DNA from: Sulfitobacter indolifex
GTDB taxonomy: Bacteria; Pseudomonadota; Alphaproteobacteria; Rhodobacterales; Rhodobacteraceae
NCBI RefSeq assembly: GCF_022788655.1
Contig: NZ_CP084952.1
Location: 198,501-262,500, forward strand
DNA length: 64,000 nucleotides
Direction: 5' to 3'
Below the pieces are notes generated by a model that did no database searches, was not told the DNA's origin, and saw nothing but the letters and a program-made list of their open reading frames with translations. Below, in pieces: positions 10,617-45,689 of this stretch. Both the position numbers and the translations under genes were made by a program. How positions within the stretch are numbered: the stretch's first letter is position 1; each line of letters starts with the position of its first letter.

Positions 10617-12296
10617 ATGTCTGATGTTATTCGGTTTCCACGGTCTATTAGGTCGAGTGCTCTGGCCGTCTCTGGTCTGACTGAGGCCGAGGATGCGCCC
10701 GGCAGCTTCAAGATGTCAGACCTCTACGGCAGAGTACGAGAAGATGAGGCTATCGATGATGGCCACTCTGACGCTGACACCAACGTTTCCTTTCTCCAAC
10801 AGCCCAGCAGCCTGCCTGCACCGGTCACAGGGTGGTCCAACCAGGAGTTGGCGGATCTTTACCGCACGCAACGGATCCTGGCCCTGGCCGGTGTGACGAC
10901 CCAAGTGGATCGCGGGGTCACCGATGAAGGAGACCCGTGGTTTATCTTCATAGACAGCCAAGACGAGGTGCTGGTGCACTTCAGCCGTTTTGACGGGGCC
11001 TATATGGTCTCCAGTCAGATGCAGGACGCCCCCATCAAAGGCGACAGCTTGCAAGATCTGGTTGCTGAATTCTCACGCCGTGTGAAACCGGTGACGCAAG
11101 CCGGACAACCGGGGCAAAACGTTGTCTCGATCGCAAAGCGCAACCGCGATGTGGTCTTCATACACCCCGCAGCAGCTTTGGCAGCATTGGTGTGGTCGAT
11201 CTATCTGATGTCAGATGAGCTCATTGCAGCCACCCCTATGATTGCTGCAGGAGAGGCTGAAGGCACAGGACCCACTTCCGTGGAAAAAAACGCAGTCGGC
11301 GACATCGACCCTGCGACAGATCACGCAGATGAGCTGCCGTACGTTGCTCAAAAAACGCCCCCGCTTCCCGCGGACCAGGACCTGACAAAACAGGGGGCAA
11401 TCGCGTCCTCCAGCCGTGAAGGTTTGGCTCTTGGCTTCTCTGGACACGGCGCTAAAGTCGTAGGAGCCAGCTTGAGCCTTGTTGCTCTTGCCGCAGGCCT
11501 GCCCCTGCCTGCGAGCAATGCACTTGAAGTTGTAGATGAGAATGGCGCCTTGCAAAAGCTAAGCTTGGCAAGCCTGTCCGCAGCACTCACCCAAGTTAAA
11601 GAAAAAGAAGCTGCCCTTTTGATGGCCTCGGAGATCACCAAACTGCAGCAGCGACAGATCGATACGACGGCACCCTCTGATGAAGAAGGGCCAGCCGAGA
11701 CGCCCACTATGGAGACGACCGCAGAGACGCCTGCGGCTTTTGAGATCGTACAACCAACGCATAGCGCTGAAATTGCAATTCTTTCCACTCATGTACCGGA
11801 GGCATCCCCGAGTTCTATGGCGCGCGATGACGTTTCAGAGAGCGCCAAGAAAGTAAAAGAGGCCCCACCGGCATCTTCTGCAGATGCCGCCTCTGAGACC
11901 GCTAAAGAAATCAGTTTTTTGCAGAGCTTTGACGCAGCATTCGGGAGCTTCGAAATCACCAGCCTCGACAAAATTGCTGAAACTGAACTCACTCAATTGT
12001 GGAACCTCGAAGACGCAAAGGATGTGCCAAATCCGCTAAGCCCGATCCAAGGCGTCCAGGGCCTTGAGACTTTTGATCAAGATGCGCGGGTTTTCCTGGA
12101 TTTCTTGCTACACACCTATAGCAATATCAAAGTCGTCAACTTGGCCACAGAGATCATATTTATCCATATGGATGCCTTTGATGGAAACGACAGCGCGCAT
12201 GAAATCTACGCCAAAAGCTGGTCGTTTGATGATGGCGGCACAATTTCCACCATCGGTTTCAAAAGTGACATGGCCCAATTTGATCTTATCGCCTGA
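10617..12296 (+). CDS. Large protein of unknown function with two possible membrane segments
   Basis: A 559-aa acidic protein that I do not recognise as a named family. Residues about 75-155 form a compact region with NQELADLYRTQRIL, DEGDPWFIF and DEVLVHFSRFDG, which looks like a folded domain. Hydrophobic stretches follow at about 184-206 and 278-297. The rest, to about 460, is rich in Ala, Glu, Ser and Thr and likely disordered; the C-terminal 100 residues again look folded (FLDFLLHTYSNIKVVN). ATG at 10617 was chosen because AAAGGA lies nine bases upstream; an in-frame ATG at 10593 has no such site. The gene stands alone with a hairpin 70 bases after its stop. Position beside Tad-like and exopolysaccharide genes suggests an envelope or matrix role (inference). 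Confidence 0.75.
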   Translation: MSDVIRFPRSIRSSALAVSGLTEAEDAPGSFKMSDLYGRVREDEAIDDGHSDADTNVSFLQQPSSLPAPVTGWSNQELADLYRTQRILALAGVTTQVDRGVTDEGDPWFIFIDSQDEVLVHFSRFDGAYMVSSQMQDAPIKGDSLQDLVAEFSRRVKPVTQAGQPGQNVVSIAKRNRDVVFIHPAAALAALVWSIYLMSDELIAATPMIAAGEAEGTGPTSVEKNAVGDIDPATDHADELPYVAQKTPPLPADQDLTKQGAIASSSREGLALGFSGHGAKVVGASLSLVALAAGLPLPASNALEVVDENGALQKLSLASLSAALTQVKEKEAALLMASEITKLQQRQIDTTAPSDEEGPAETPTMETTAETPAAFEIVQPTHSAEIAILSTHVPEASPSSMARDDVSESAKKVKEAPPASSADAASETAKEISFLQSFDAAFGSFEITSLDKIAETELTQLWNLEDAKDVPNPLSPIQGVQGLETFDQDARVFLDFLLHTYSNIKVVNLATEIIFIHMDAFDGNDSAHEIYAKSWSFDDGGTISTIGFKSDMAQFDLIA

Positions 12297-12367
12297 GGGT
12301 CGCAGGTCCGCGGTTCCTGCCGAGTAAAGAGCAGGAAAGGGGCGCTGTCCCACGTTTCCGTTTCTTC

Positions 12368-12384
12368 TGGGCGGGCTCCGCCCA
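12368..12384 (+). terminator. Probable intrinsic terminator
   Basis: TGGGCGG and CCGCCCA form a perfect seven-pair stem with a three-base loop, followed by a moderately T-rich CCTTGTTT. It lies 71 bases after the stop of the 559-aa gene. Confidence 0.5.
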
Positions 12385-12730
12385 CCTTGTTTACACGCCA
12401 CCGCCCGCATCCCCTATGAGAGTGAGCAGGCGCGATGCAATCCTCTTCGGTTTAGAAATACATCGGGAAACTTAGCTCAAGGCTGCCGACACTCCGTTGT
12501 GCTGCGTGAATGCGGCTGACAGGTTCTCATCACAGTAAGTGCTTGATGTCGCCATAAAAAGGCTTCTTTTCCAGGGTCTTTTATTCATGAGATTCGATGA
12601 GTAAGGCAAAAAATGTACAGTCGCGACATATCGCCAATCCAGCTGAGAGCTTGCTCGCCGAACTATATCGAGACCGTCACACACAGCAGTTTCTTTGTAC
12701 AATTGTAACCTCCGCAGAAGAGGAAACCCC
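12385..12730 (+). other. Leader of the Tad-like genes
   Basis: About 350 AT-richer bases before the TadG-like gene. I see no gene here. A promoter for the three-gene operon should lie in it, but no site matches consensus well enough to name. Confidence 0.4.
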
Positions 12731-14422
12731 ATGGGGCGCAGTGCTATAAAAACATTGTTGGTCAAGAAACTAGATCAGTTCCGGAAGGAGGAGGACGGCG
12801 GCATGCTGGTCCTCATGATCATGCTTTTCCTAGTGATGACCGTGGGTGGCGGTCTTGCTGTCGATCTGGCCAATCACGAGCGCACACGGACCACGTTCCA
12901 GACCCATCTCGATAATGCTGTGCTTGCGGCTGCGAGCCTTTCACAGGAGTTAAACCCCGAAGATGTGGTGTACAGCTACCTGTCTGCTGCCGGTCTTGAT
13001 ACCTCGCGTGTCAGCGTAGACGCCCGCGAAGACAAGATCGGTGGCATCTTGGTTGGCCGAACGGTGGAAGCCTCAATCCTTGGCGGACTCAACACTTACT
13101 TCTTTCGGTTTTTCGACATCGAAAGGTTTAACATGGTGATCTCCTCTCAGGCGACCGAGCGGGTGGAAGATATCGAGATCTCGCTCGTGCTTGATGTATC
13201 AGGGTCTATGGCTTGGTCCGCACGGGGAGGCGGTGGCGCCAAAATTGACCTGCTTAAAGGTGCTGCAAGTGATTTCGTCGAGACGATCTTAAACGATTCC
13301 GAGGAAGATCGGGTTTCAATCTCGATCATCCCCTATTCGACAAAAGTGAATGCGGGAGAAGACTTGCTTGAGCAGTATACCGTGACCCAGGAGCATGACT
13401 ACTCGCATTGTGTCGATTTTAATGCCGATGATTATACGGACTTGGCAATCAGCCCCAGGACCGAGCTCCAGCGCACAGGCCATTTCCAGTTTCAGCAGAT
13501 GTCCACCAGCGATCCCCGCAGCGGGCAGTGGGTCTGTCGACATGATGGGGGTTTTTCGATCACACCTCTCTCCAAATCGGTTAGTGATCTTAAGAGACAG
13601 ATCGCGGCGCTTACACCTGAAGGTTCAACGTCGATTGATATGGGGGCAAAATGGGGCTTGGCTCTGCTGGACCCTTCTGCCCGAGGCCCTGTCTCGGCGC
13701 TGATTGCATCAGGTCAGGTTGATGCTTCGTTCCGTGAGCGCCCTCACCCACATGACGCCGAGAACAGCATGAAGGTCTTGGTGCTGATGACGGATGGCAA
13801 AAACGACAATGAGTATCGCCTTCAGCCTGAGTATGCGTCGGGGGATGCAAAGGTCATTCGAACGACGTCTACCGCTTCACACCTCTTCTATACCGTTGAT
13901 GCACCGGAAACGAACGGTACAAATGACGGGAGTTGGCCCAACAACGAGCGCTATTTCTACGCCACGCATCCTTTTGAAGAGGAGCGCATGTGGGATGAGC
14001 ATACATTGCGCGACAACCCGAGACTGGAGCGCTATGCAAATCAACTAGAGGAAAAGCATCTGTCTTGGCCTGAAGTCTGGGCCGAAATGTCCCCAGAATA
14101 TTATGGCTACAACCTGTATGGGCGGCAGGGCAACTCGTGGTGGTCATGGAATTCCCGTTTGCAGAGCTTCTGGCAGAACATGCATAGTACGATTGGCACA
14201 GACGAGAAGGATCGGCGCCTCCGTAACATCTGTGCTGCAGCGCAGAGAGCTGGTATTGTGATCTACGCGATCGGGATGGATGTCGACAGCCAGAACTCCC
14301 TCGACCTTCTGAAAGAATGTGCCTCTACCGAAGCTCATTACTTCGATGTCGATGGGCTGGAAATCCAAACTGCCTTTGACATGATCGCCGCGTCCATTTC
14401 CATGCTCAGGCTAACGAAATGA
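12731..14422 (+). CDS. TadG-like protein with von Willebrand factor A domain
   Basis: A 563-aa protein with one N-terminal membrane helix (about 25-45, GMLVLMIMLFLVMTVGGG) followed by the TadE/TadG-type AVDLANHERTRTTFQTHLDNA segment. The vWA domain starts near 148; its metal site is DVSGS at 155-159, and LMTDGKND appears further on, with an inserted Trp/Tyr/Asn-rich loop region before the C-terminus. ATG at 12731 has AGAGGA seven bases upstream. It heads a three-gene set with overlapping starts. In Tad systems such proteins sit in the periplasm and help anchor or initiate Flp pili. No pilin, ATPase or secretin gene is nearby. Confidence 0.85.
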   Translation: MGRSAIKTLLVKKLDQFRKEEDGGMLVLMIMLFLVMTVGGGLAVDLANHERTRTTFQTHLDNAVLAAASLSQELNPEDVVYSYLSAAGLDTSRVSVDAREDKIGGILVGRTVEASILGGLNTYFFRFFDIERFNMVISSQATERVEDIEISLVLDVSGSMAWSARGGGGAKIDLLKGAASDFVETILNDSEEDRVSISIIPYSTKVNAGEDLLEQYTVTQEHDYSHCVDFNADDYTDLAISPRTELQRTGHFQFQQMSTSDPRSGQWVCRHDGGFSITPLSKSVSDLKRQIAALTPEGSTSIDMGAKWGLALLDPSARGPVSALIASGQVDASFRERPHPHDAENSMKVLVLMTDGKNDNEYRLQPEYASGDAKVIRTTSTASHLFYTVDAPETNGTNDGSWPNNERYFYATHPFEEERMWDEHTLRDNPRLERYANQLEEKHLSWPEVWAEMSPEYYGYNLYGRQGNSWWSWNSRLQSFWQNMHSTIGTDEKDRRLRNICAAAQRAGIVIYAIGMDVDSQNSLDLLKECASTEAHYFDVDGLEIQTAFDMIAASISMLRLTK

Positions 14423-14952
14423 CCTCATTGTTCAAAAGAAGCTCCTTCCGAGCGTCTGAAGAAGGCGGTGTAACCATTGAGTTCGTCCTATTGGTGCCGC
14501 TGGTACTCTACTTCTTCTTTTTGGCGCTCGAAACGGGCCTTTGGAGCGCCCGCGAAATCATGTTGCGCCGCGCAACCAATCTGGCCGTGAGGGATGTGCG
14601 TCTGTCCACGGCCAATCCCCCAGGCTATGAAGAGATGAAATCCCTGATCTGCGAGCGGTCTTCCTTTACTGCCGGGTGCCTGGACGGCATTCGGATTGAG
14701 ATGCGTGCGCTGCCGGTGGCCGAATGGGATAACGTTTCCGGCCCGGCGCTCTGTGTTGATCGATCCGAGGATTATGACCCGGCAAACAACTTCACCGCCG
14801 GCCAGCAGAATAATATAATGCTGATGCGCGTTTGCCGTCTTTTTGAGCCTCTTCTTCCGGGCACCGGCCTGGGGCGTGAACTGCCGGCGGGCTCTGACGG
14901 CGCCTATGGCGTGCACATTACCACTGCTTTTGTAACGGAACCTCGCGGATGA
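14419..14952 (+). CDS. TadE-like pseudopilin
   Basis: A 177-aa protein with the TadE class-III-type signal: EEGGVTIEFVLLVPLV near residues 14-29, with a Glu five residues after the probable Gly processing site, and a single membrane helix. A globular domain with paired Cys residues (ICERSSFTAGC near 75-85, ALC, RVCR) follows. It starts in an ATGA overlap with the TadG-like gene and ends the same way into the next gene. Minor pilins of this class help initiate or anchor Flp/Tad pili. Confidence 0.85.
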   Translation: MTSLFKRSSFRASEEGGVTIEFVLLVPLVLYFFFLALETGLWSAREIMLRRATNLAVRDVRLSTANPPGYEEMKSLICERSSFTAGCLDGIRIEMRALPVAEWDNVSGPALCVDRSEDYDPANNFTAGQQNNIMLMRVCRLFEPLLPGTGLGRELPAGSDGAYGVHITTAFVTEPRG

Positions 14953-15533
14953 AACGTGCGAACAAAACCATGTTCTCCTTTTTCAAGGACGAGAGCGGGA
15001 GCCAGACAATTGTCTTTGTCATTCTGTTGCCCCTCCTAGTTTGGTCAATTCTTGCGATGCTGGCCTTCACGGACATGTTTCGAGTCCGGGCGATCGCCAC
15101 AGACGCAACTGCCGTCATTGCCGATAGCCTGTCGCGACAAACCATGCCCATTGATGCAGATCACCTCGAAGGCCTGCAGTCGATTGCAGGGCATCTGACG
15201 CGATATGGCGATGGTGTCTCGTTGCGAGTCACCCAGTTGCGCTGTGCGAGGAATTGCGAAAATCTCGCCCGCCGCGTGTTACGGGTTGATTTCTCGCAAG
15301 GCGTTGGAATGGCAGGTCTGCGCAACCGCGACTTTTCTGAGGGCGAGCAGCGCGCCCGTGTACCCTTGATGACTGGCGGCGACCGGGTGGTGCTGGTGGA
15401 GACGTCCTTCACCCACGAACCAATTGCAAACGTTGGGCTGAACCCCTCCGAGATCAATATGTCTCACGCCACCCGCATGCGCTTTGCACCGCAACTTTGT
15501 TGGGAAGAATGCACAATCGACAACGCCAGCTGA
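14949..15533 (+). CDS. TadE/TadF-like pseudopilin-type protein
   Basis: A 194-aa membrane-anchored protein. Its N-terminal DESGSQTIVFVILLPLLVW resembles TadE/TadF prepilin signals, but the position five residues after the Gly is Val instead of Glu. This may prevent assembly in the usual way or mark it as a TadF/TadG-type partner. The rest contains CARNCEN and a C-terminal CWEEC pair. It is the third gene of the coupled set. Confidence 0.8.
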   Translation: MKRANKTMFSFFKDESGSQTIVFVILLPLLVWSILAMLAFTDMFRVRAIATDATAVIADSLSRQTMPIDADHLEGLQSIAGHLTRYGDGVSLRVTQLRCARNCENLARRVLRVDFSQGVGMAGLRNRDFSEGEQRARVPLMTGGDRVVLVETSFTHEPIANVGLNPSEINMSHATRMRFAPQLCWEECTIDNAS

Positions 15534-16093: not shown

Positions 16094-17269
16094 ATGTCCA
16101 AGACTAAAATTGCCGTGGCCGGGATTGGCTATGTAGGACTGTCCAACGCCGTTTTGCTGGCCCAGCACAATGATGTAACGGCAGTGGATCTGAACCCGGA
16201 TCGCGTAGCAGAAGTGAATGCGGGCCGTTCACCGATCGTGGATCCCGAGATTGAACGCTATCTGGCAGAAATACCCTTAAGCCTGCGCGCCACGACTGTT
16301 GCTGCAGAGGCTTACAGTGAGGCAGAGTTCGTCATCATCGCCACGCCTACGAACTACGATCCGCAGACGAACGTCTTTGATACGTCCAGTGTCGAAGCGG
16401 TGGTGCGCGAAGTCATGGTTCTCAACACGAAGGCAACCATTGTCATCAAATCCACCGTGCCGGTGGGCTATACTGCAGCCCTTTGCGCAAAGCTTCAGAC
16501 CGACCAGCTGATCTTCAGCCCCGAGTTTCTGCGCGAGGGCCGTGCTCTATATGACAACCTGCACCCGTCGCGTATCGTGGTGGGCGAAGACAGTGTTCGA
16601 GCGCGCCGTTTTGCAGCGCTTCTGGCCGAAGCAGCGCGCACTTGCGATATCCCTATACTCTTCACCGGCGCGGCCGAAGCTGAGGCAGTAAAGCTTTTCG
16701 CCAATACTTTCCTCGCCATGCGCGTCGCCTATTTTAACGAGATGGACAGCTATGCGCTGTCCAATGGGCTCGATACACGCCAGATCATCGACGGCGCTTG
16801 TCTCGATCCGCGCATTGGCCAGCAATACAATAACCCTTCTTTTGGGTATGGGGGCTATTGCCTGCCCAAAGATACAAAGCAGTTGTTGGCCAATTATTCG
16901 GATATTCCGCAAAATCTGATCCACGCGATCGTGGAGGCCAATCGCACCCGCAAAGACTTCGTTGCCGAACGGATCCTTGCGTTAAGCCCGCGCAAAGTCG
17001 GCATCTACCGGCTGGTGATGAAAACCGGATCTGATAATTTCCGTCAAAGTTCGGTGCAAGGGATCATGAAGCGACTGAAAGCCAAGGGCCTCGAGGTTAT
17101 CGTCTATGAACCAGCGCTGCAGGAAGACAGCTTCTTTGGGTCCGCCGTGATCGAAGATCTCGATGCATTCAAGATGCAGGCGGATGTGATCGTGGCAAAC
17201 CGCCGTCATACCGATCTTGAAGATGTCAGCGAGAAGGTTTTTACCCGAGATCTGTTTGGTGCCGACTGA
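16094..17269 (+). CDS. ugd: UDP-glucose 6-dehydrogenase
   Basis: A 391-aa cytoplasmic enzyme oxidising UDP-glucose to UDP-glucuronate with two NAD+. Rossmann motif [11 protein letters not shown] starts near residue 9, the substrate segment FSPEFLREG lies at 141-149, and the catalytic Cys256 sits in [14 protein letters not shown]. Length matches the short E. coli-type enzymes (about 388 aa). ATG at 16094 begins the conserved [10 protein letters not shown]; a longer upstream reading adds a non-conserved tail. It stands alone, 22 kb from the UDP-xylose synthase gene at 38595, which would use its product. Together they give UDP-glucuronate and UDP-xylose for exopolysaccharide. Confidence 0.95.
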
Positions 17270-20328: not shown

Positions 20329-20685
20329 TTAGTCTGCAATGCGCATTGTCTCAGGCGCGGTTCCTGCGGTAATCTGATCGCGGTACCAGTTGGGCTGCCG
20401 TCCTTTTCCAGTCCAAGTTTGCGTCTTATCGGCAGGATTGGAAAAGACGGGTTTCGACGGCTTTTTAGCAGCTTTTGCTTTGCGCTTTGTCTTCGCGGGC
20501 ACCGGGCTTGCGAGTTCTGCAATTTCACCTAGCGAAAAGCCAAACTCAGCAGCTGCTTTGGAAGCAGCCTTCTTTGCCTCACGATGATCCTTCGCTATTG
20601 CAGATGCTAACGCTTTTTGGACATCATTCAAAAGCTTTTCGAGCTCTTTGCGAGACATTGTCTTCAGTTCACTTTTATCGATCAT
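20329..20685 (-). CDS. H-NS family nucleoid protein
   Basis: A 118-aa DNA-binding protein. The N-terminal 45 residues (SELKTMSRKELEKLLNDV) are helical and would oligomerise; a Lys/Ala-rich linker (about 64-80) follows. The C-terminal AT-hook-like DNA-binding domain carries TWTGKGRQPNW at 90-100, the signature of alphaproteobacterial HvrA/H-NS proteins. Such proteins silence AT-rich, horizontally gained genes. Its place beside AT-richer envelope genes makes local silencing plausible. The Shine-Dalgarno is weak (GGAAACC). Confidence 0.9.
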   Translation of the reverse strand: MIDKSELKTMSRKELEKLLNDVQKALASAIAKDHREAKKAASKAAAEFGFSLGEIAELASPVPAKTKRKAKAAKKPSKPVFSNPADKTQTWTGKGRQPNWYRDQITAGTAPETMRIAD

Positions 20686-32470: not shown

Positions 32471-32485
32471 ATGCGCTCTGCTCTA

Positions 32486-34594: not shown

Positions 34595-34690
34595 CCTGCC
34601 AGTTCCATTTCTGCCATGTAAACAGTTGCGACACTGGGTTCCTTGCTAGCGTGGCAAGATGACGGAATGCGCAGCCACCATCTTGAGATT

Positions 34691-34724
34691 AAAAAACCGG
34701 GGCCCAGCGAACGCTGAGCCCCGG
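34691..34724 (-). terminator. Strong intrinsic terminator after the glycine-rich protein gene
   Basis: On the minus strand CCGGGGCTCAGCG and the GC-rich inverse form a stem of about 12 pairs (34697-34724) closed by a small loop, followed by six T (34691-34696). It is 16 bases after the stop at 34740, between that gene and the repeat-protein/T1SS genes, so the glycine-rich gene is likely made at a separate, higher level. Confidence 0.85.
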
Positions 34725-34739
34725 AACCGTTATTTAAAC

Positions 34740-36449
34740 CTATGCCCCATCGCCATCGTCGCCGATGTAGCTGGAGCTGAAGCCGCCGCCGACAACGGTC
34801 ATATCGACAGTGTTGCCAAGCACGTTGGCACCCTGAACGATCGACATGTTGAAGGCTGTGGTGTCGATCTGCGAGGCAGCCGAGGCGAAGGATTCACCGC
34901 TGACGAAACCGTCGTCACCGTTACCTGAACCCCATTGGCCTGCGTTGCCACCAGCACCACCAGCACCGCTGTACGCGTTACCGCCAGCACCACCGGTGCC
35001 GCCACCGGCTTGAACGCCACCGACGATTGCTTGACCACCGAAGGCATCACCAGTGTCGCCACCCCAGGAGTGGCCACCGTAGCCATCACCGCCGTCACCG
35101 GCTCCCGCAATGTTCATGCCGCCATTGCCTTGAGCATTGTTCAATGCCGCAGACCATGCGCCTGCGTCACCACCGTCACCACCGTTGGCATTCCCACCGG
35201 CACCGTTACCGGTACCTTCACCGTTGGCGAGGCCTATTGAACCGGCGTCGCCGCCGTCCCCGCTATGACCAACGCCTAGACCAATGCCGCCTCCGAATGC
35301 ATCCGCATCCGAATCTCCAGTGCTACCGCCACCGGCAATGGGAATACCAAAGAGGCTTCCGGCGGAGCCGCCATCAGCATCGCTGGAATCTGCACCAGCG
35401 CCTCCTAGGCCGACGCCAACGCCAATGCCGCCTGCATCACCGGAGTCACCTCCGTCAGCATCGGAGCCAGCACCAGCCAATCCAAGACCGAGGCCCGCGC
35501 CAATCGAGGTTGCAGCATCGCCGTCGCCGCCGTCAGCGTCAGCGTCTGAATCTGCACCACCCAGTCCCAGTCCGAGACCAACAGCTGCAGCATCACCACC
35601 ATCGGCACCCGCACCACCGGCTGCGGAAGACGCACCGCCGGCTCCGCCTTGACCACCACCGGCAGTCGCCGCGCCTCCGATACCGAGACCACCCAGGGCT
35701 CCAGCGCCGTTTGCTGCGCCACCTTGACCACTATTGCCACCAGCAGCCCCTGCATCAATACCGTCGGCAGAAGTTGCTGTGCCGCCGGCTGAGTCATTGT
35801 CTTGGTTGATCGTACCGCTGTTGCTAACGTTGCTCAAAGTGTCGTTGTCATTGAGGTTGTTAGACTGGGCATTGACCGTACCCGCGTCATTCCCCGCACC
35901 ATTCAGGGCGTCATTGAGAATATCATCTAGGTCAAGATCATTGCCTGGATTGTAGTCAATATCTCCCTTGGCCATGATGAAATCATTCGCCGACGCATCT
36001 TTCAGGTCGATGTCAGCAAAGTCGTCATCGTTGGGCATATACCCTTCCATGTTCATGCCAACCTCGACCCCAACAGTTGTATTGCTGTTGTTGGTCATAC
36101 CAGTGTTATTGGTTGTCGCGCTATTGTTACTGGTCGAGCTATTGTTATTGGTATTGCTGGTGTTGCTCGTGTCGCTGTCGTTCGTCATCTTGTTGTCGGA
36201 ATGATTACCATTGTGGTTTCCGTTCAGACCGAGATTGGCGTTTAGGTTGCCATTCCCATTCCCATTGCCATTCCAGTTCTCAGATGTCTGATCCTGCGTT
36301 GAAGTTTGATCTTGTTCCTGATCGGAATGCTGGCCTTGACCTTGTGCTTGTAGCTCAAGTTGCGCCTGACCTTGACCCTGGAATTGATCCTGGTCCTGTT
36401 CTTGATCACCATTTCCGAAGTGAAAAATCGGTGTGCGAGATGATGGCAT
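34740..36449 (-). CDS. Extreme low-complexity protein (Gln/Asp, Asn/Ser/Thr, Gly/Ala/Asp zones), probable secreted matrix protein
   Basis: A 569-aa protein in zones. Residues 14-55 are almost only Gln, Asp, Glu and Gly (QEQDQDQ, QGQGQAQ). Residues 58-125 are Asn with Ser, Thr and Gly. Residues 126-215 are acidic and more ordered, including DLDLDDILND. Residues 220-510 are Gly/Ala/Asp repeats such as GLGLGLGGADSDADADGG. The last 45 residues are hydrophobic-rich (MSIVQGANVLGNTVDM) and could carry the type I export signal. GGAGAAATACA precedes the ATG at 36449. No Cys is seen. It resembles secreted matrix or adhesin proteins in style but matches no family I know. T1SS genes are on the same strand just downstream, and a regulator gene diverges from it. 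Confidence 0.8.
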   Translation of the reverse strand: MPSSRTPIFHFGNGDQEQDQDQFQGQGQAQLELQAQGQGQHSDQEQDQTSTQDQTSENWNGNGNGNGNLNANLGLNGNHNGNHSDNKMTNDSDTSNTSNTNNNSSTSNNSATTNNTGMTNNSNTTVGVEVGMNMEGYMPNDDDFADIDLKDASANDFIMAKGDIDYNPGNDLDLDDILNDALNGAGNDAGTVNAQSNNLNDNDTLSNVSNSGTINQDNDSAGGTATSADGIDAGAAGGNSGQGGAANGAGALGGLGIGGAATAGGGQGGAGGASSAAGGAGADGGDAAAVGLGLGLGGADSDADADGGDGDAATSIGAGLGLGLAGAGSDADGGDSGDAGGIGVGVGLGGAGADSSDADGGSAGSLFGIPIAGGGSTGDSDADAFGGGIGLGVGHSGDGGDAGSIGLANGEGTGNGAGGNANGGDGGDAGAWSAALNNAQGNGGMNIAGAGDGGDGYGGHSWGGDTGDAFGGQAIVGGVQAGGGTGGAGGNAYSGAGGAGGNAGQWGSGNGDDGFVSGESFASAASQIDTTAFNMSIVQGANVLGNTVDMTVVGGGFSSSYIGDDGDGA

Positions 36450-37124
36450 TGTATTTCTCCTATGGGGCACATGCCGGATCGCTGCTCATTTCAAAAGCGA
36501 CCATAAGGCTGTGCGTTTCTGTTGGATTGAAGTTTGAAGCGCGCAAAACACCCAAACAGGGGTTGTTAGAGCGCAGTTTTCTTTTGAGTTTTATTGATAA
36601 TAGCGCCTCCCTTATTTGCTTTGATTACAAAATGACGGGAACGAGAGAAGCTCCAGAAGAGGAACTCCAGACCTTCAGAACCGCCAACGCACTCCGGCTG
36701 CAGAGCACGCCATCACGACAAGGTGACAAGCCTGAATATCTCGAAAATTGGCAGAAAAACCTATCTGACCATTAGGGCTAGGTAGCGCCAAAGACACTTA
36801 ACTTATTGAAATGTATAGAAAATTAAAAACTCGAAAGTCAAAATAGGAAGACCTGCGTTATTTTTTGATCTATAGGTCTACACCTTTCGATCTAAGAAAG
36901 TAAAAAAATACCACCTAAAGTTGAAAGAGCGAGCTCTTGATAATATTATGGCAAAAAATGGGCCGTTTGTGTTATTATCTAGTCATAAAGGCGTAGAATC
37001 TCTACCCGTTAAAAACATCTTTTGTTAACAAAACAAATAAAAATTGCTGACTTATCACAGCACGAAATATACGCGATGAGGCAGACAGGCATAGAACGTT
37101 GTAGCCAAAGTTAGGGACAATGCT
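36450..37124. other. AT-rich divergent regulatory region
   Basis: About 675 bases between two divergent genes. The part 36780-37110 is markedly AT-rich compared with the rest of the window, with many A and T runs. No gene is supported. It should carry the promoters of both the low-complexity matrix protein and the LuxR-type regulator, and would be a natural H-NS target. Confidence 0.5.
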
Positions 37125-37889
37125 ATGCACAAATATGAACATTTTAGCTCTGATAAAGTCTCCTGTTTTTTTGTAGGAAACTCTCATGACTTCTCGGACA
37201 CATTGCTTAAATTGGCTCAAACGAGCTTTGAAAATATAGCCTTTTGTCGTTTGCCTTCTGTCGAATCCCTTCTCGATTTAACAGTCTGTCGCCCCGATAG
37301 AGTTCGAAGCATCATTTTAAATCAGTCTATGGCTGTTGGCTTAAAAACTGCGCTTCCGGTCTTGCTTGAGCAATTTTCCAATGCCACCGTAGCTTTATCT
37401 TACCGACAGCCGAAGCTGGTCCGAGATATCCTGAACGATATGAGGGCAACCCAACCCCCACTCAACTTAGCTTTCCTGCCAATGAACCGAGACGTAGATC
37501 GTTGGCTGACCCTCCTGCAGCTTTTGATCTGCGGGGAAAACTACATTCCCTCAGAGCTTTACACCTCTGCAGACACCCAAATACCAGAAACGATAGAGAT
37601 TTGCGCTAAGCCAAAATCTTTGCTCGACCCCGCTGTGCAAGCTTCCTTAAGCTTGCATGATCCCGCCCTTAAAGTTGCCAAAGACGAGCTAACAAACCGA
37701 GAGATGCAGGTACTGACCTGTGTCGCTGAAGGTAAGCAGAACAAGGTTATTGCCAATAGCCTGGGCCTCTCTGAGCATACTGTAAAGCTGCACATCCACC
37801 ACGTAATATCTAAGCTTGGCGTTAATAACCGTACAGAAGCAGCCGTTTGGTTTTTGGAAAAATCCAGAACAGAGATGAGGTCAGTATGA
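37125..37889 (+). CDS. LuxR-family regulator, CsgD/VpsT-like
   Basis: A 254-aa protein with a C-terminal LuxR helix-turn-helix (about 188-245: LTNREMQVLTCVAEG, ANSLGLSEHTVKLHIHHV). The N-terminal 150 residues look like a receiver fold (VSCFFVGNS, LPVLLEQFSNATVALS) but without a clear phospho-Asp. CsgD/VpsT proteins bind c-di-GMP through a W-[FLM]-[ST]-R motif; here the equivalent is WLTL (127-130), so the Arg is missing. The position between matrix protein and exopolysaccharide genes suggests control of both. It is coupled by ATGA to the next gene. Confidence 0.82.
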   Translation: MHKYEHFSSDKVSCFFVGNSHDFSDTLLKLAQTSFENIAFCRLPSVESLLDLTVCRPDRVRSIILNQSMAVGLKTALPVLLEQFSNATVALSYRQPKLVRDILNDMRATQPPLNLAFLPMNRDVDRWLTLLQLLICGENYIPSELYTSADTQIPETIEICAKPKSLLDPAVQASLSLHDPALKVAKDELTNREMQVLTCVAEGKQNKVIANSLGLSEHTVKLHIHHVISKLGVNNRTEAAVWFLEKSRTEMRSV

Positions 37890-38389
37890 ATGAGAATGCT
37901 GGCCGGCATCTGCAGTTTGATGATTTTCTCCTGCTCGTAGGCAAGCTCAACTATACCTGGACCAACACCGAAAGCCTGTTAATCCATTTCATTGCTGGCT
38001 TATCAGAAGTGGACAAAGAGACGGCAACTGTCATCTTCTTGACCTTAAACACCACGCGCGCACGGATCGACCTTGTTGAACGTCTGGCAAAGCTCGACAG
38101 GGTCCCATCAGATCAAAGAACCGCGATTCTCGACATCACAGGCCGCATTTTGGGACAAGCCAAGCTACGCAACCGCTACAATCACTGCATCTATGCTTTT
38201 GATGCGGATGGCGACAATCCCCGCACCATTCTGATGCGGATCGCCGACCGCAAGGACACGCTGAAGATGGGGCAATCGCACCCCCTCAACGATGCTGCGG
38301 CCGAAGATATTGAAGCAGCCATCAAAGCGTTGGCCCTTATCAACCATGCGATCTGGAAAATTATTCAGCAGTTCGACTTCCCGCGCTGA
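37886..38389 (+). CDS. Helical cytoplasmic protein of unknown function
   Basis: A 167-aa protein with no signal or membrane segment, predominantly helical by eye (LVGKLNYTWTNTESLLIHFIAG, ARIDLVERLAKLD). It starts in an ATGA overlap with the regulator, so the two are made together. It could be a partner or sensor for the regulator. I do not recognise the family; a HEPN-like helical bundle is one guess. Confidence 0.65.
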   Translation: MNENAGRHLQFDDFLLLVGKLNYTWTNTESLLIHFIAGLSEVDKETATVIFLTLNTTRARIDLVERLAKLDRVPSDQRTAILDITGRILGQAKLRNRYNHCIYAFDADGDNPRTILMRIADRKDTLKMGQSHPLNDAAAEDIEAAIKALALINHAIWKIIQQFDFPR

Positions 38390-38594: not shown

Positions 38595-39626
38595 ATGAAT
38601 TTGCACATACCCAAATTGCACTCAGATCGGGCCAGCACATCTAGAAATACCGATGCTCGCCGCCGCATTTTGGTTGCAGGCGGCGCTGGCTTTCTCGGGA
38701 GCCATTTGTGCCATACGCTTTTGCATGACGAACATATCGTCATTTGCATGGATAACTTTGAAACTGGCAGGATGTCCAATATTGGGATCTTGCTCAGTGA
38801 TCCCAATTTCATCTTGATGCGGCATGACATCATCAATCCCCTACCAGACATTGGCCCTGTCGATGAAATCTACAATCTTGCCTGCGCAGCCTCACCACAA
38901 AAGTACCAAATCGATCCCATTCATACACTCAAGAGCAACATGTGGGGCGCCCTAAACCTTCTGGAACTTGCGGTTTCTTGTGATGCGAAAATTTTGCAAT
39001 CGTCCACCTCAGAGGTCTACGGCGATCCCGAAACTTCCCCTCAATCGGAAGACTACAGGGGCTGTGTGAATACGATGGGCCCTCGGGCCTGTTACGATGA
39101 AGGCAAGCGCGCCGCCGAAACCCTGTTTTACGACTACTATAAGACAAAGGGGGCTCGGATACGGGTCGCACGGATCTTTAACACTTATGGCCCTGCGATG
39201 TGCCCGGCCGATGGGCGGGTCATCTCAAACTTCATGGTGCAAGCCCTGTCCGGCGCGCCCCTTACGATCTACGGAGATGGCCGCCAAACCCGGTCATTTT
39301 GCTATGCTACCGACATGATCGCAGGTCTTATGGCTTTGATGGCGGCACCAGACAGCGCGGTTGGCCCCTACAACCTCGGCAACCCAGAAGAATTCACCAT
39401 AGGTGCCCTTGCCCATAGCATCCTTGAGATCCTCGGCCTTCCTCCCATCATACACTATTTGGACCTGCCACAAGACGATCCCAGACAACGTTGCCCCAAC
39501 ATTACAAAAGCCAACAGGGACCTGAACTGGATGCCGTGCATTTCTTTGGCTGAAGGGCTGCGCCACACAATGCCCTATTTTGAGACTGAGCTGCGACAGA
39601 TGAAACCTGCGCTGATCGCGGAATGA
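38595..39626 (+). CDS. UDP-glucuronate decarboxylase (UDP-xylose synthase)
   Basis: A 343-aa extended SDR. GGAGFLGSH (29-37) binds NAD, the substrate segment STSEVYGDP follows at 138-146, and the catalytic pair is Tyr167-x3-Lys171 (YDEGK). ARIFNTYGP and a late RSFCYATDM are typical of the UXS subgroup rather than GalE. It turns UDP-glucuronate, from the Ugd reaction, into UDP-xylose. A good Shine-Dalgarno (TGGAGGAA) precedes the ATG. It heads a four-gene coupled operon. The closest alternative would be another UDP-glucuronate-type decarboxylase or epimerase. Confidence 0.88.
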   Translation: MNLHIPKLHSDRASTSRNTDARRRILVAGGAGFLGSHLCHTLLHDEHIVICMDNFETGRMSNIGILLSDPNFILMRHDIINPLPDIGPVDEIYNLACAASPQKYQIDPIHTLKSNMWGALNLLELAVSCDAKILQSSTSEVYGDPETSPQSEDYRGCVNTMGPRACYDEGKRAAETLFYDYYKTKGARIRVARIFNTYGPAMCPADGRVISNFMVQALSGAPLTIYGDGRQTRSFCYATDMIAGLMALMAAPDSAVGPYNLGNPEEFTIGALAHSILEILGLPPIIHYLDLPQDDPRQRCPNITKANRDLNWMPCISLAEGLRHTMPYFETELRQMKPALIAE

Positions 39627-40627
39627 GCGCCTCGACTGGCATATGCGTGACAGGCGGCGCAGGCTATATCGGCAGCCACGCTTGCTATGCTCTTGGCGTT
39701 GAGGGGCGCCCCCCATTGGTTGTCGACAACTTGGTAACCGGTCATCGCGCCGCCGTTCGATGGGGGCCGCTTGCCCATATAGATCTGCGCGATACGACAC
39801 AGCTCACACACGCGCTATGGCAGCATAAAACCAGAACTGTTCTGCATTTTGCCGCTTCAGCCTATGTGGGGGACTCGATGCAGGACCCGATCAGCTACTA
39901 CGACAACAACGTCTGCGGGATGATTTCTCTGCTTCAGGCCTGCTTAGCTGCCGGCGTGCGCCACTTCATCCTATCCAGCAGCTGTGCCACCTATGGCATC
40001 CCACAAACCATTCCTATTACGGAAACAACCTCGCAACGTCCGATCAGCCCCTATGGACAGAGCAAGTTGATCTGCGAAAACATACTGCGCGATGCCGCAG
40101 GGCAGGCGGGCATGGACTTTGCAATACTGCGGTATTTTAACGCTGCCGGAGCGGACCCAAGCGGCGCTCTGTGCGAGGAACACTCCCCCGAAACCCATCT
40201 TATACCGCGGGCCCTCGCTGCCACGTGCCCGCAGGGGGAACCGCTGGCTCTGTTCGGGACAGATTACGACACAGCCGACGGCACCTGTGTGCGCGATTAC
40301 ATCCATGTGAGCGATCTGGTGCGTGGGCATCTTATGGCATTGGCACATTTGGAAAAATTCGGCGGCAGCTTGGTGTTGAACCTTGGCAGTGGAAGAGGCG
40401 TGTCGAACATGCAGATTATTCAGGTGGTCGAGGAGGTGACAGGCGCCGAAGTAAAGGTGCGTAAAGCGCCTCGGCGCCAGGGGGATCCGCCCAGTTTGAT
40501 CGCCGACATCAACCAAGCCCGGGAAATTCTAGGCTTTGAGCCAAACCACTCCGACATCCATACCATCATAGCGGATGCGGCGCGCAGTTTTGGCCTATTG
40601 AAGGTACAAAATGCAAAATCTGCCTGA
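39623..40627 (+). CDS. galE: UDP-glucose 4-epimerase
   Basis: A 334-aa extended SDR with CVTGGAGYIGSHACYAL at the start, FAASAYVGDS, SSSCATYG near 115, and SPYGQSK with the catalytic Tyr and Lys near 143. RYFNAAGADPSG is typical of GalE. It starts in an ATGA overlap with the UDP-xylose synthase gene. It interconverts UDP-glucose and UDP-galactose; in this setting UDP-xylose to UDP-arabinose is an alternative. The end overlaps the GT2 gene by 17 bases. Confidence 0.9.
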   Translation: MSASTGICVTGGAGYIGSHACYALGVEGRPPLVVDNLVTGHRAAVRWGPLAHIDLRDTTQLTHALWQHKTRTVLHFAASAYVGDSMQDPISYYDNNVCGMISLLQACLAAGVRHFILSSSCATYGIPQTIPITETTSQRPISPYGQSKLICENILRDAAGQAGMDFAILRYFNAAGADPSGALCEEHSPETHLIPRALAATCPQGEPLALFGTDYDTADGTCVRDYIHVSDLVRGHLMALAHLEKFGGSLVLNLGSGRGVSNMQIIQVVEEVTGAEVKVRKAPRRQGDPPSLIADINQAREILGFEPNHSDIHTIIADAARSFGLLKVQNAKSA

Positions 40628-42461
40628 TCACAAGCCGAAGCTTTTCCGCCAGCCTCTCCTGAAAGGGAAGGTGAAAAGGCGCTATGTTCTGTTGGCCAGC
40701 CTATGGCTGCTCACCGTCGCCTTCTTTTGGCACTGGTGGTTGCAGTCAGAGCACGCCACCGCTTGGTACCTCTATGTCCCGGTCACGCTTTGTGTCGCTT
40801 GGGTCTTTTTTGTCCAAGCCTATTTTCTTAACCTTTTCTTGCGGTCACATCATACGACCGGCACACTTGCTGAGCTGGGTCCATGCCGGGTCGCCATGGT
40901 GGTTACGAAAGCGCCGGCAGAACCCTTTGAAGTCGTTAAGGCAACGCTTAAGGCCATGCTGGCCCAAACAGTGGCCCATGATACTTGGCTGGCTGACGAA
41001 GACCCTGACCGTGAGACCCTAGACTGGTGCCACGCGCATGATGTTCATGTCTCCACGCGCAAAGGGGTCGCAGCATATCACAACAAAAGCTGGCCCCGCC
41101 GGACGCGGTGTAAAGAAGGTAACCTCGCCTATTTTTACGACCACTACGGCTATGAGCACTATGACATCGTGTCCCAGCTTGACGCTGACCATGTGCCCGA
41201 GCCCGACTATTTGCACGAGATGCTTCGCCCCTTCGCAGATCCGGATGTCGGCTATGTCACAGCACCAAGCATCTGTTCGCGCAACGCGCCCAACAGTTGG
41301 GCCGCAAGGAGCCGGCTGCATACAGAAGCCGTCTTTCACGGCGTCGTACAGGCGGGATATGCAAACGGCTGGGCGCCCATGTGTATTGGCTCCCATTATG
41401 CCGTACGAACGAAGGCGCTGCATGCCGTCGGAGGGCTCGGACCTGAGCTGGCCGAAGACCATTCAACCTCCATGATCCTCAACGCGGGAGGGTGGAAAGG
41501 TATGCATGCAATCGATGCTATTGCTGAGGGAGAAGGCCCCCCCACGGTGGCAGATCTGATCGTGCAGGAGTTTCAGTGGTCGCGAAGCCTAATGACCATT
41601 CTGCTCCAGCATACGCCGCGCTATCTTGCCGGTCTGTCACCAGGCCGTAAGTTGCAGTTTGTTTTCTGCCAATTATGGTATCCACTGCTGGCCGGCTTCA
41701 TGGCCCTGATGTTCATATTGCCCATCGCCGCACTCATTTTCGACGTGCGCTATGCTAACCTTACCTTCCCCGCATTTCTGCTTCATGTTTGGCCCTCCAT
41801 CGCTGTCATGATCATCCTTGTCTTATGTATGCGGACAGATGGGTTCTTCCGACCCCATGATGCCAAGGTGCTGGGATGGGAAAAAATGCTCTTTGCACTG
41901 GTGCAGTGGCCATGGGTGATCTTGGGAAGCCTCATGGCAGTGCGAGATACGCTCACAGGAAACTTTGTCGACTTTCGCGTGACGCCAAAAGGCCAACGGG
42001 ACGTGCAGATGCTGGGATGGAAGGTCCTATCCCCCTACCTAGTCTTGGCGCTTTTTTCCCTCTTCCCAGTGCTATGGGTGGAACGGGCAGAGCAAGCTGC
42101 TGGTTTTTACATCTTCGCTCTCGTTAACGCTACACTCTACATTACGGTCTTCGTAGTTATTGTTGTCAAACATCTGAGCGAAAACCAATTGGGCGCTGCA
42201 GTATGGAAACCACGAACCGTCGCGCAATTTGCTTGTGTGGGATTATCGGCAGCCTGCATTGTTATCGCAGCAGGAGAGCGGGGCCATGCAGGCCTAGTCG
42301 CGCTTACCGAAACACGCAGCACAGTCCGCATCTTCATACCTACCTATGTTGTGACAGGCGCAGGGCAGGGCGGTGAAAGCTCCCCTTATGTCATGGTCTA
42401 TAACCCCCACTGGTGGTCGCAGTGGCTCAATGCAGCCCCCCTGAAAGGAGGCACAAAATGA
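40611..42461 (+). CDS. Cellulose-synthase-like processive glycosyltransferase (GT2)
   Basis: A 616-aa membrane enzyme. Two N-terminal helices (about 26-45, 52-76), a GT2 domain (about 90-330), then further helices to about 560. The nucleotide-sugar motifs are LDADH (190-194) and AEDHS (281-285). The processivity motif, normally Q-x-x-R-W, reads QEFQW (319-323), so Gln replaces Arg. The protein lacks a PilZ domain of BcsA size. It overlaps galE, with AAGG before its ATG. It likely polymerises a beta-linked sugar from the nucleotide sugars made by its neighbours and moves it across the membrane. The exact sugar is unknown. Confidence 0.88.
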   Translation: MQNLPDHKPKLFRQPLLKGKVKRRYVLLASLWLLTVAFFWHWWLQSEHATAWYLYVPVTLCVAWVFFVQAYFLNLFLRSHHTTGTLAELGPCRVAMVVTKAPAEPFEVVKATLKAMLAQTVAHDTWLADEDPDRETLDWCHAHDVHVSTRKGVAAYHNKSWPRRTRCKEGNLAYFYDHYGYEHYDIVSQLDADHVPEPDYLHEMLRPFADPDVGYVTAPSICSRNAPNSWAARSRLHTEAVFHGVVQAGYANGWAPMCIGSHYAVRTKALHAVGGLGPELAEDHSTSMILNAGGWKGMHAIDAIAEGEGPPTVADLIVQEFQWSRSLMTILLQHTPRYLAGLSPGRKLQFVFCQLWYPLLAGFMALMFILPIAALIFDVRYANLTFPAFLLHVWPSIAVMIILVLCMRTDGFFRPHDAKVLGWEKMLFALVQWPWVILGSLMAVRDTLTGNFVDFRVTPKGQRDVQMLGWKVLSPYLVLALFSLFPVLWVERAEQAAGFYIFALVNATLYITVFVVIVVKHLSENQLGAAVWKPRTVAQFACVGLSAACIVIAAGERGHAGLVALTETRSTVRIFIPTYVVTGAGQGGESSPYVMVYNPHWWSQWLNAAPLKGGTK

Positions 42462-43381
42462 AACCCCTTCATATGTTCACCCCCAAGCGGACATTTGCGC
42501 CTGGAGCCGTATCGCTTCTTTGCGCTCTTGCCTTGGGAACTACATTGTCCGCACAATCCGTCCCTCCGGGGGACCTCCCGTTTGGCGTCTATGACCCAAA
42601 TGGCGACTTTTCGGATTTGAAGGGGGTGTCGATTGAACATCTGTTCCTTCCTTGGGAAGATGTGCTGCTGCCCAGTTTGTTCGAGGCAGAAACCTACGCA
42701 AAAGAACGCAACCGGACTCTGTTGGTCACAATTGAGCCTTGGACATGGTCGCGCGACGACCGCAACAGCCCGACAGTTCTGCGCGAAGGCATCCAAAATG
42801 GTACCTACGATGCCACCATGCAGAACGTCTGCTCTGCCTTAGGTCAGCTTGATATCCCGATGACAATCCGTTGGGCACAGGAAATGGAAGACCCCAGTGG
42901 TCAGTTCATTTGGTCTAATTGGCGCCCGGAAGACTATATTTCCGCGTTCCGCCGGATGAACGCCATTTGCCGCAACAATGCGCCAACCGCACGCTACATG
43001 TGGTCCCCGCTCGGATATGAAAACCTCGCAGACTATTATCCCGGTGACGATGTCGTGGATGTCGTAGGGCTCTCCGTGTTCAGCTTCGAGCCCTGGGAAG
43101 AGGCAATACTCGACCAAGCACAGACCTTTGAGGGAATCTTCGGTCCTCGGTATGAGCGTGCTGTGACCTTTAACAAACCTATCGTGGTCGCAGAGCTTGG
43201 ATTTTCGGGTGATGCTGAGCATGTCGCCCAGTGGAACGCCGATATCCGAACGATGAGTGCCTCTTATCCCGAACTCGAAGCGGTGGTCTATTTTGCGCAA
43301 AAGGAAGTTTATCCATGGCCAGACGGCTTTGGATATCCGAACTGGCGGCAAACCGCCCATGTTCTGCCTGATGCTCGCTAA
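42458..43381 (+). CDS. GH26-like glycoside hydrolase, secreted
   Basis: A 307-aa protein with a signal peptide (about 1-32, ending LSAQS) and a TIM-barrel domain. RWAQEMED with Glu142 as probable acid/base and VVAELGFS with Glu246 as probable nucleophile fit clan GH-A, GH26 in particular. IWSNWRPEDY and MWSPLGYENL resemble the GH26 middle. AAAGGAGG precedes the ATG and the start overlaps the GT2 stop by ATGA. A hydrolase directly coupled to a synthase is typical (as BcsZ for cellulose): it would release, trim or proof-read polymer in the periplasm. Polymer specificity (mannan, xylan or mixed) is open. Confidence 0.85.
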   Translation: MKPLHMFTPKRTFAPGAVSLLCALALGTTLSAQSVPPGDLPFGVYDPNGDFSDLKGVSIEHLFLPWEDVLLPSLFEAETYAKERNRTLLVTIEPWTWSRDDRNSPTVLREGIQNGTYDATMQNVCSALGQLDIPMTIRWAQEMEDPSGQFIWSNWRPEDYISAFRRMNAICRNNAPTARYMWSPLGYENLADYYPGDDVVDVVGLSVFSFEPWEEAILDQAQTFEGIFGPRYERAVTFNKPIVVAELGFSGDAEHVAQWNADIRTMSASYPELEAVVYFAQKEVYPWPDGFGYPNWRQTAHVLPDAR

Positions 43382-43609
43382 GTGATTCAGGAAACACCCT
43401 TCTTATAGAGACTTGGTGGCATTTTCCGTGAAAGCCTAAGCCACCTGAAAGCTCATCTGGCACCCGTAAAATGGCCCACCTCAAGTATTTGAGGGATGGA
43501 CTAGACGCACGGGTGCCTTGACCGTAAACGCCGTATTCGCATAGTTGCTCCACTGTCATCGAGGCAAGCCAACATCAGAAAGGCTTGCCCGAGTTTGAGG
43601 AGAGCAGTT

Positions 43610-43807: not shown

Positions 43808-43855
43808 ACGCTCCTGGATCAGGATACGCGGCTGATTAAACAAGGGCGCTGACCC

Positions 43856-44794: not shown

Positions 44795-45068
44795 GGTTCG
44801 CAAAAATTCCTTGTATCTAGTATGGGTCTCAGCCCCTCTAGGCCACACTCTGCGCGCGCCTCGCTGGTCTGTGCTCCAGCCTAAAAGCTGTTTTTTTGAT
44901 AGGCTCTTTTAGACATTCGCGAATGTTCGCGCGCTGCTTTACTTATTTGACCTGACGCACCGGCCAGAAGGCTTTCGGTCATGCGTGAATGTATGAGGGC
45001 ACCTAAAAACCATAGACACAAACCAAGTGGGAAGTTTCATCGAGTCTTGATCACCAGAAACTACAAGA

Positions 45069-45093
45069 CGCGGGCCTGAGAAGGAAGCCCGCG
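45069..45093 (-). terminator. Possible terminator
   Basis: CGCGGGC and GCCCGCG form a seven-pair stem with an 11-base loop in the 367-base space between the hydrolase-fold gene and the gene ending at 45162. The minus-strand follow-on TCTTGTAGTTTC is moderately T-rich. I see no gene in the rest of this space (44795-45161). Confidence 0.45.
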
Positions 45094-45161
45094 CCATCTT
45101 TATTACTCGATTACTCGACGTGTGATCGGAGAGCAAACGAAAGAGTAATCAATGACCGAGT

Positions 45162-45689
45162 TTACGGATCAATTTTATTTCCAGAGGTATTTACGTTGGC
45201 CAAATTCTCAACCACGACATCTGCGAAAGTCGTTACCATTGCGGTATAAAAATCAGTTTCTGTAGGCAGCATGTTGATAAACCCTTCCGGAGGAATTGTA
45301 TCTCCGGCGTAGGCCGATATTTTCACAGGAAAGCTCAATCCTGCATTTTCCCCCGACGGGCTAGTGATATCAACAACACCCTCTAGCTCATTGAATTCTC
45401 TGCTTTCGGGTAGCATAGTAGAACCATTCAGAGAAATCTTGCGAATGTCGATCCTAATTTCTGGATCAGCGCTATCGCTACTTAAAGGCACACGCTGAGC
45501 CAATTCTTCGCGCAGATCTTCCTCAATGTCGGGATAAAAATCCAACGCGTTGCTATCGGAGGCTGCATCAACAGATGCTTCAACATCGATCTTAGAAATA
45601 CGAAGATCCTCTGAGGCATATGCCACCGCACTCAGTGCGAGAGTGCTAACGCTAGCTGCAAAGACAATCTTCTTAAGCTGGACAAACAT
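45162..45689 (-). CDS. Secreted/periplasmic protein of unknown function
   Basis: A 175-aa protein with a clear signal peptide (MFVQLKKIVFAASVSTLALSAVAYA, cleaved before SEDL). The mature part is acidic and beta-rich, with DFYPDIEEDLREELAQRV near 45 and the regular IRIDIRKISLNGS; this style resembles small periplasmic proteins of the DUF-type found in Rhodobacterales. No Cys. GAGGAG precedes the ATG at 45689. Not recognised further. Confidence 0.7.
   Translation of the reverse strand: MFVQLKKIVFAASVSTLALSAVAYASEDLRISKIDVEASVDAASDSNALDFYPDIEEDLREELAQRVPLSSDSADPEIRIDIRKISLNGSTMLPESREFNELEGVVDITSPSGENAGLSFPVKISAYAGDTIPPEGFINMLPTETDFYTAMVTTFADVVVENLANVNTSGNKIDP

Follow-up and report, generated by a model that had tools for sequence, protein, structure and literature searches.

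In the curli genes (csgBAC and csgDEFG), structural genes are divergent from a LuxR-type regulator, with about 750 bp between them, and among Alphaproteobacteria type I secretion is reportedly associated with a biofilm protein, BapA of Paracoccus denitrificans. In Vibrio vulnificus (PMC6978666), cabABC places a type I exporter beside its own matrix protein, CabA, together with the brp exopolysaccharide and the regulator BrpT. The operon uxs1-uxe-apsS-apsH1-apsE-apsH2 of Sinorhizobium meliloti is described (PMC7902896) as yielding an arabinose-containing, Congo-red-binding polysaccharide enhanced by cyclic di-GMP (c-di-GMP) through CuxR, a regulator also treated elsewhere (PMC8546604). Here we describe a cassette found in 64,000 nucleotides of Sulfitobacter indolifex (contig C2, 198501–262500 of 313,826 bases; this whole stretch is called the window below), in which the genes of a LuxR/NarL-type regulator and a 167-aa protein (h167) are divergent from those of a low-complexity protein (LC), a 702-aa protein (p702) and a type I exporter composed of an ABC permease/ATPase (ABC) and a HlyD-family adaptor (HlyD), with a hairpin in the leader of LC.

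Like curli, the cassette has putative structural genes facing away from a LuxR-type regulator, at a similar distance; its exporter is of type I, whereas curli export runs via CsgG. The likeness to P. denitrificans BapA, a biofilm protein that an alphaproteobacterium reportedly combines with a type I system, is one of description. With cabABC/BrpT the cassette shares an exporter next to a (here presumed) matrix protein, a VpsT-type LuxR regulator and an exopolysaccharide partner, whereas CabA binds calcium and the cassette has two substrate-like proteins that lack known domains, h167 and a leader RNA; CabA and LC are likened by gene context, not by sequence, and we take the V. vulnificus system as a functional parallel. 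Our preferred reading, to which we give a probability of about 60%, is that the PrtD/HlyD-type cassette secretes LC and probably p702 as components of a matrix or fibre, under a LuxR-type switch and leader control. Among the titles and abstract openings listed by literature searches, we recognised no account of this cassette; most subscription papers lay outside its coverage, so earlier publication is possible.

Conservation of the core cassette

The six-gene arrangement was first seen on annotated plasmids, and in the window it occupies 10 kb (28825–38389). A profile scan of a genome collection confirmed 189 stretches, the best 80 of which were kept as relatives, and 20 window proteins were compared by tblastn with these 80 loci and six plasmid loci. 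Flanks of about 10 kb were used, and 56 of the 80 loci had more than 9 kb on both sides (full-flank loci). In these, h167, ABC and HlyD were each found near p702 without exception (56/56), and a regulator match was found in 48/56, directly beside h167 in 44 and elsewhere, at about half coverage, in four (Ensifer/Sinorhizobium); the eight full-flank loci in which it went undetected belong to Rhizobiales. The h167 gene is placed downstream of the exporter in two loci (L086 and L098). An LC-type open reading frame (ORF) precedes p702 in 83 of 86 loci, a count that includes some ORFs cut by contig ends, and the other three loci are two contigs starting inside p702 and one frameshifted record. In the records of Paracoccus and Rhodobacter, the part read contains the six-gene core but none of the polysaccharide operons of the window.

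In a sample of 292 order-level genomes, used for p702, h167, LC and the GT2 synthase alike, the LC C-terminal profile and h167 mark identical sets of 48 genomes, spread over 26 of 112 genera. The p702 profile is found in 50, namely the same 48 and two genomes with partial matches (G262 and G283). The co-occurrence of p702 and h167 gives a Fisher value of 4e-53, uncorrected for kinship, which overstates independence because one genus supplies many of the 48 genomes. LC C-terminus and h167 are present in one copy per genome, and in two copies in the window's own genome. In a wider sample of 385 class-level genomes, h167 was found in three, including the window's own; the other two belong to one family, and one of them is partial. 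The cassette reaches plant-associated rhizobia. These results support the exporter, LC, p702, h167 and regulator as a real conserved unit, and the best explanation of their distribution is a self-contained export unit that is patchy in Rhodobacterales and Rhizobiales.

The second copy lies on contig C3 (307,297 bases), which has at least 129 kb in common with C2 at 99.94% identity; the identity covers window positions 1–49336, and the first 45.7 kb of the window are free of mismatches against C3. The cassette is therefore present twice in the genome, which reflects a recent duplication of a replicon or else an assembly that contains one plasmid in two versions. A cassette pair on two plasmids is also seen in Sulfitobacter W074 (L017 and L018), where the LC gene of the copy on the 72-kb plasmid is apparently frameshifted in its conserved C-terminus.

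Table 1. Window positions of the core cassette, the leader hairpin and the flanking genes
Feature	Position	Strand	Remarks
567-aa protein	10593–12296		no Pfam match
Tad/VWA	12695–14422		
TadE	14419–14952		
Third pseudopilin-like ORF	14949–15533		no Pfam match
Ugd	16094–17269		
H-NS	20329–20685		
DUF995 gene	20967–21449		near fusion synthase
Deacetylase-GT2 fusion synthase	22152–25601	+	polysaccharide deacetylase and GT2
DUF3131 protein	25598–28135	+	beside fusion synthase
HlyD-family periplasmic adaptor	28825–30165	-	TIGR01843, 369 bits (cut-off 208.7)
Type I ABC permease/ATPase, PrtD type	30158–32470	-	TIGR01842, 692.7 bits (cut-off 510)
p702, 702-aa acidic beta-rich protein	32486–34594	-	conserved C-terminal tail
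LC, 569-aa low-complexity protein	34740–36449	-	LC-type ORF before p702 in 83/86 loci
LC leader RNA hairpin	36477–36502	-	6-bp stem, possible 7th pair, conserved loop
LuxR/NarL-type regulator, 254 aa	37125–37889	+	GerE helix-turn-helix, E 5.9e-21; divergent from LC
h167, 167-aa helical protein	37886–38389	+	overlaps regulator's end
UXS, UDP-glucuronate decarboxylase-like short-chain dehydrogenase/reductase (uxs1-like)	38595–39626	+	56–57% identity to S. meliloti pSymB block
GalE-like epimerase (uxe-like)	39623–40627	+	54% identity to pSymB block
GT2 polysaccharide synthase (apsS-like)	40611–42461	+	53% identity to S. meliloti
GH26-like secreted hydrolase	42458–43381	+	Pfam GH26, E 2e-4; 47–48% identity to S. 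meliloti
Transposase	47158–48165		HTH_38 and rve domains

Proteins of the cassette

The exporter is of the type I secretion class, PrtD/HlyD type; the ABC ORF is given as listed, with a true start possibly downstream. For the regulator, a LuxR-type helix-turn-helix (HTH) was confirmed, no assignment was obtained for the N-terminal domain, and the label 'CsgD-like' in the original prediction rests on this HTH only. The motif W[FLM][TS]R, the c-di-GMP motif of VpsT/CsgD regulators, was found in one of 59 regulator sequences. The intergenic region between LC and the regulator (36450–37124 in the window) spans 610–1210 bp, with a median of 756, in the 30 loci measured, a length that suggests several control sites.

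In LC the order of parts is a Q-rich, an N-rich, a conserved middle and a G/A/D-rich part, followed by a conserved 70-aa C-terminus with 68% mean identity and 20 invariant positions in 39 sequences. The 569-aa protein of the original prediction was taken to be this ORF, and has 576 aa when reading starts at an upstream GTG. Complete LC proteins range from about 320 to about 1500 aa, the short ones being without most of the G/A/D-rich part, and 76/83 contain a 60-aa segment in which Q and N together make up 35% or more. Type I substrates are expected to be acidic and mostly free of cysteine. The median isoelectric point is 4.05 for both LC and p702 (close to the program's floor), against 7.8 for h167, and cysteine is absent from 81/83 LC and 59/77 p702 proteins; none of the 83 LC proteins has a hydrophobic N-terminal stretch. 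Arrays of GGxGxDxUx (RTX) repeats were found neither in p702 nor in the window's LC, and single RTX-type motifs number 33 across the 83 LC proteins, at most two in each, where shuffled sequences give a mean of 15.

For p702, mean column identity is 41%, and at least 100 homologues are listed among 8000 scored candidates, at identities of up to 97%, with 83–90% in named Sulfitobacter. Its AlphaFold2 model (mean predicted local distance difference test, pLDDT, 70.7) shows a helix at the N-terminus and is beta-rich at about 305–645; the fold search gave no significant PDB match, CsgA being an insignificant entry of its list. Neither LC, p702 nor h167 has a convincing Pfam or NCBIfam match, and no catalytic or toxin-like domain was found in LC or p702. 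Several p702 homologues are publicly named 'type I secretion protein ATPase', which is likely a misannotation; precomputed Pfam domains are lacking from all 100 homologues listed, and the window's p702 has no Pfam domain. Two ideas about LC and p702 were dropped. An apparent LC-p702 fusion in Rhodobacter CZR27 (L020) is an annotated 1517-aa ORF running into p702, from which the LC C-terminal motif is off-frame, and a relationship of the LC C-terminus to p702 repeats, as a nucleator/subunit idea would have it, has no evidence from hhalign (probability 6%).

With a mean column identity of 62% in 65 sequences, h167 is better conserved than p702 and the regulator (35%). All 65 sequences contain RNxxxH, which fits the strictly conserved Rx4-6H motif of HEPN RNases, and the AlphaFold2 model is mostly helical (pLDDT 86.9), with no significant PDB match. 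Searches of Pfam, NCBIfam, PDB sequences and folds gave no HEPN match, the lack of HEPN entries in the fold search being uninformative; the best Pfam hit, to HTH_30, is weak and occurs in 14 of 70 members. Among 8000 scored candidates, 2,225 homologues pass E 0.001, and in the best 120 listed every named one is 'hypothetical' or 'uncharacterised'.

A covarying hairpin in the LC leader

The starting clue was a word conserved before LC in about one third of 30 loci. A short upstream peptide was considered and rejected, as the reading frames stop at differing points and do not match the frame of LC; the word is thus unlikely to be coding, which led the search to a hairpin whose arms change yet match in many more leaders. 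Its stem starts about 53–54 nt before LC in the window, and in 53 of 64 loci the distance to the listed LC start is 47–59 nt. Across the 52 leaders aligned, each of the six pairs has changes on both sides, double-change cells number 48 against 15.2 in shuffled alignments, and 93.4% of cells are paired against at most 60.9% when the arms are slid; 29 of 285 paired cells are of G-U type. RNAalifold predicts this stem plus one pair from the same alignment. Seed leaders were picked partly by pairing, the controls being unselected leaders and the specificity of a covariance model. Among 77 unselected leaders, at least five Watson–Crick pairs are found in 46 (18.4 shuffled; 20–28 in four neighbouring windows), at least six in 20 (6.0 shuffled; 2–6 in neighbouring windows) and at least seven in three (1.7 shuffled).

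The covariance model matches the window at 36470–36508 with 34.9 bits. Over 86 sequences (1.75 Mb) it gives 66 matches at E<1, all at LC genes; 65 of these, 15 of them in non-seed loci, lie within -60 to +130 nt of the listed LC start, and the remaining one belongs to an additional LC gene, in tandem, in L089. Another 12 matches at E 1–10, five at LC leaders and seven elsewhere, were not counted as support. No match at E<1 was obtained in 20 of the 85 non-window loci, in eight of which a contig end truncates the leader or its vicinity; five others match at E 1–10. In the 292 whole genomes, 15 matches in 14 genomes pass E<=0.01, all between h167 and LC of a cassette, although some of the organisms may also be represented among the seeds; in the other 34 cassette genomes the hairpin was not called under these stricter filters. 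Within the window's whole genome both LC copies are matched, and the next match has E 0.73. The tandem gene (L089:8398–9865, 489 aa), directly before p702, had been overlooked until the hairpin match.

A scan of Rfam over the window gave nothing at gathering threshold, and permissive scans of the intergenic region and of one relative gave nothing at the hairpin. The hairpin is an uncatalogued leader RNA, new here and highly specific to LC genes. Minimum-energy folds of six single leaders contain the whole stem in two, part of it in one and none of it in three. A second stem holding the ribosome-binding site is found in 16 of 39 leaders (3.9 shuffled), and by that test is missing from the window and 22 others; as a clade-level hint it suggests translational control in one subset of leaders. 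An element common to LC and both polysaccharide operons was also sought and rejected: a position weight matrix of the leader word scores 47.6 at the LC leader and 12.3 at the next best place in the window, and the RNA model likewise singles out LC.

Polysaccharide operons and other flanking genes

The original prediction had drawn the whole 35 kb together as one regulated matrix locus. Its gene content was confirmed by Pfam and NCBIfam scans of the window proteins, with the listed genes in place. Of three claimed Tad-like pseudopilins, Tad/VWA and TadE have Pfam support and the third ORF has none; a GH18 domain in the fusion protein was not found at E 0.05. Its list lacked h167 and the LC leader RNA. 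The G+C fraction drops from about 0.64 to 0.50–0.56 near position 10 kb.

The UXS-GalE-GT2-GH26 genes are homologous to, and have the order of, a block on S. meliloti pSymB, at 47–57% identity, and we equate that block with the published uxs1-apsH2 operon by gene order; the Pfam call for GH26 is just over the cut-off. The pSymB block has an AraC-type gene in front and two DUF995 genes inside, neither of which is found in the window block, and the latter adjoins a LuxR gene, unlike the S. meliloti operon with its AraC-type CuxR. In full-flank loci, whose flanks cover this block and the fusion/DUF3131 pair at their window distances, UXS and GalE matches occur near p702 in 14/56 each, the GT2 synthase in 11/56, at either of two positions, and GH26 in 12/56. 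The UXS and GalE counts include two loci (L063 and L073) at 24–26% identity, likely unrelated short-chain dehydrogenase/reductase genes, as well as one locus (L044) that lacks the GT2 synthase. Among the 292 genomes, 37 have this arabinose-type synthase and 14 of them share p702, against 6.3 expected (Fisher p 0.001); it is within 10 kb of p702 in four of the 14, and 23 of the 37 are without p702. The block is a facultative neighbour of the core.

The fusion synthase has PgaC/IcaA as its best NCBIfam match, at 192 bits below the cut-off of 422, and with DUF3131 lies 4–10 kb from p702 in the window; the pair was found near p702 in 0/56 full-flank relatives. The fusion synthase is present on six Sulfitobacter plasmid records, four of them without a p702 match, and DUF3131 adjoins it in three of four plasmids read, the fourth having no annotation of it. 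The fusion synthase, DUF995 and H-NS occur together on Sulfitobacter plasmids without a p702 match. This synthase is accessory and belongs to a second polysaccharide. H-NS, DUF995, Tad-G-like, the 567-aa protein and four other flanking genes were found in 0/56 and Ugd in 1/56, which is a weak test for Ugd, H-NS, DUF995, Tad and the 567-aa gene because they lie 11–22 kb from p702, beyond the 10-kb flanks (as do all genes at 10.6 kb or more).

The 567-aa protein is conserved at 75–86% in S. faviae and Sulfitobacter W074, where its homologues adjoin DUF4214 genes and, in W074, also a further type I exporter. The transposase, which we take to be of IS30 type, lies near the right edge of both the C2/C3 identity and the similarity to W074.

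Proposed function and alternative explanations

The exporter, probably with a TolC encoded elsewhere, would secrete LC and probably p702, and their conserved C-terminal ends may be used for export. A disordered-looking, acidic, Q/N- and G-rich LC together with the beta-rich p702 would build an extracellular matrix or fibre, or act as its scaffold; judged from sequence, the export of both proteins and such a role are likely. We infer that the divergently encoded LuxR-type regulator acts across the long intergenic region to switch the cassette, and that transcription passes through the hairpin, at which LC synthesis would come under a second control with h167 as a candidate partner. In some roseobacters the arabinose/xylose polysaccharide operon appears to have joined the cassette and may supply the carbohydrate of the matrix. 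A more elaborate version, in which LC is prion-like, p702 acts as a beta-repeat nucleator or anchor, the hairpin holds the LC mRNA, and an HEPN-like h167 reads this hairpin, binding or cleaving the leader RNA and so tying fibre synthesis to the secretion or surface state, seems to us unlikely.

A dedicated 35-kb locus that runs both polysaccharide systems, Ugd, the Tad-like genes, H-NS and the secreted proteins in a single programme would fit the order GH26 block, core, fusion/DUF3131, DUF995 and H-NS, which is kept on two other Sulfitobacter plasmids at 65–96% protein identity, and the genes at least 11 kb from p702 fall beyond the flanks compared. We nevertheless hold such a locus to be quite improbable, given the missing fusion/DUF3131 pair and the infrequent arabinose-type synthase in full-flank relatives, the occurrence of both synthases elsewhere without p702, and a conserved leader element seen at LC only, so that no regulon common to the core and the polysaccharide operons emerged. 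The idea of one matrix locus is thus partly supported: the exporter, LC, p702, h167 and regulator form a conserved unit, and the arabinose-type synthase does co-occur with p702 beyond expectation, while the fusion synthase was near p702 in none of the full-flank relatives. The best reading of the 35 kb is that separable parts were assembled locally around a genuinely conserved core.

The exported proteins might instead be non-structural, such as a competition factor, a surface-tension or ice-active protein, or a metal- or nutrient-binding polymer. The very acidic, Asp-rich LC, the lack of any domain of known function and a patchiness resembling that of ecological accessory traits would suit this; the lack of catalytic or toxin-like domains and a linked operon related to that for a Congo-red-binding polysaccharide, which points to a surface trait, make it doubtful. 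A defence role was likewise set aside, as a PADLOC scan of seven proteins gave matches only to the HTH region of the regulator. Also improbable, in our view, is that the covarying element is a DNA operator, a dyad for the LuxR regulator. In favour of this, its arms are inverted repeats lying between LC and the regulator's gene, and single leaders do not fold unusually well. A typical dimer site would show the reverse of what is seen here, where an asymmetric centre is conserved and the arms change together; the G-U pairs, and a spacing to LC that holds despite the variable length of the intergenic region, also argue for RNA.

LC, p702 and h167 are families without a convincing domain match that are tied into one unit in about a sixth of the order-level genomes, and the leader RNA marks the LC gene with a specificity that makes the system easy to find and test. 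Both the families of the core and the leader RNA merit further study. If the matrix role is true, marine surface colonisers and rhizobia would share an uncharacterised matrix protein, a secreted low-complexity chain whose synthesis would be controlled at the RNA level.

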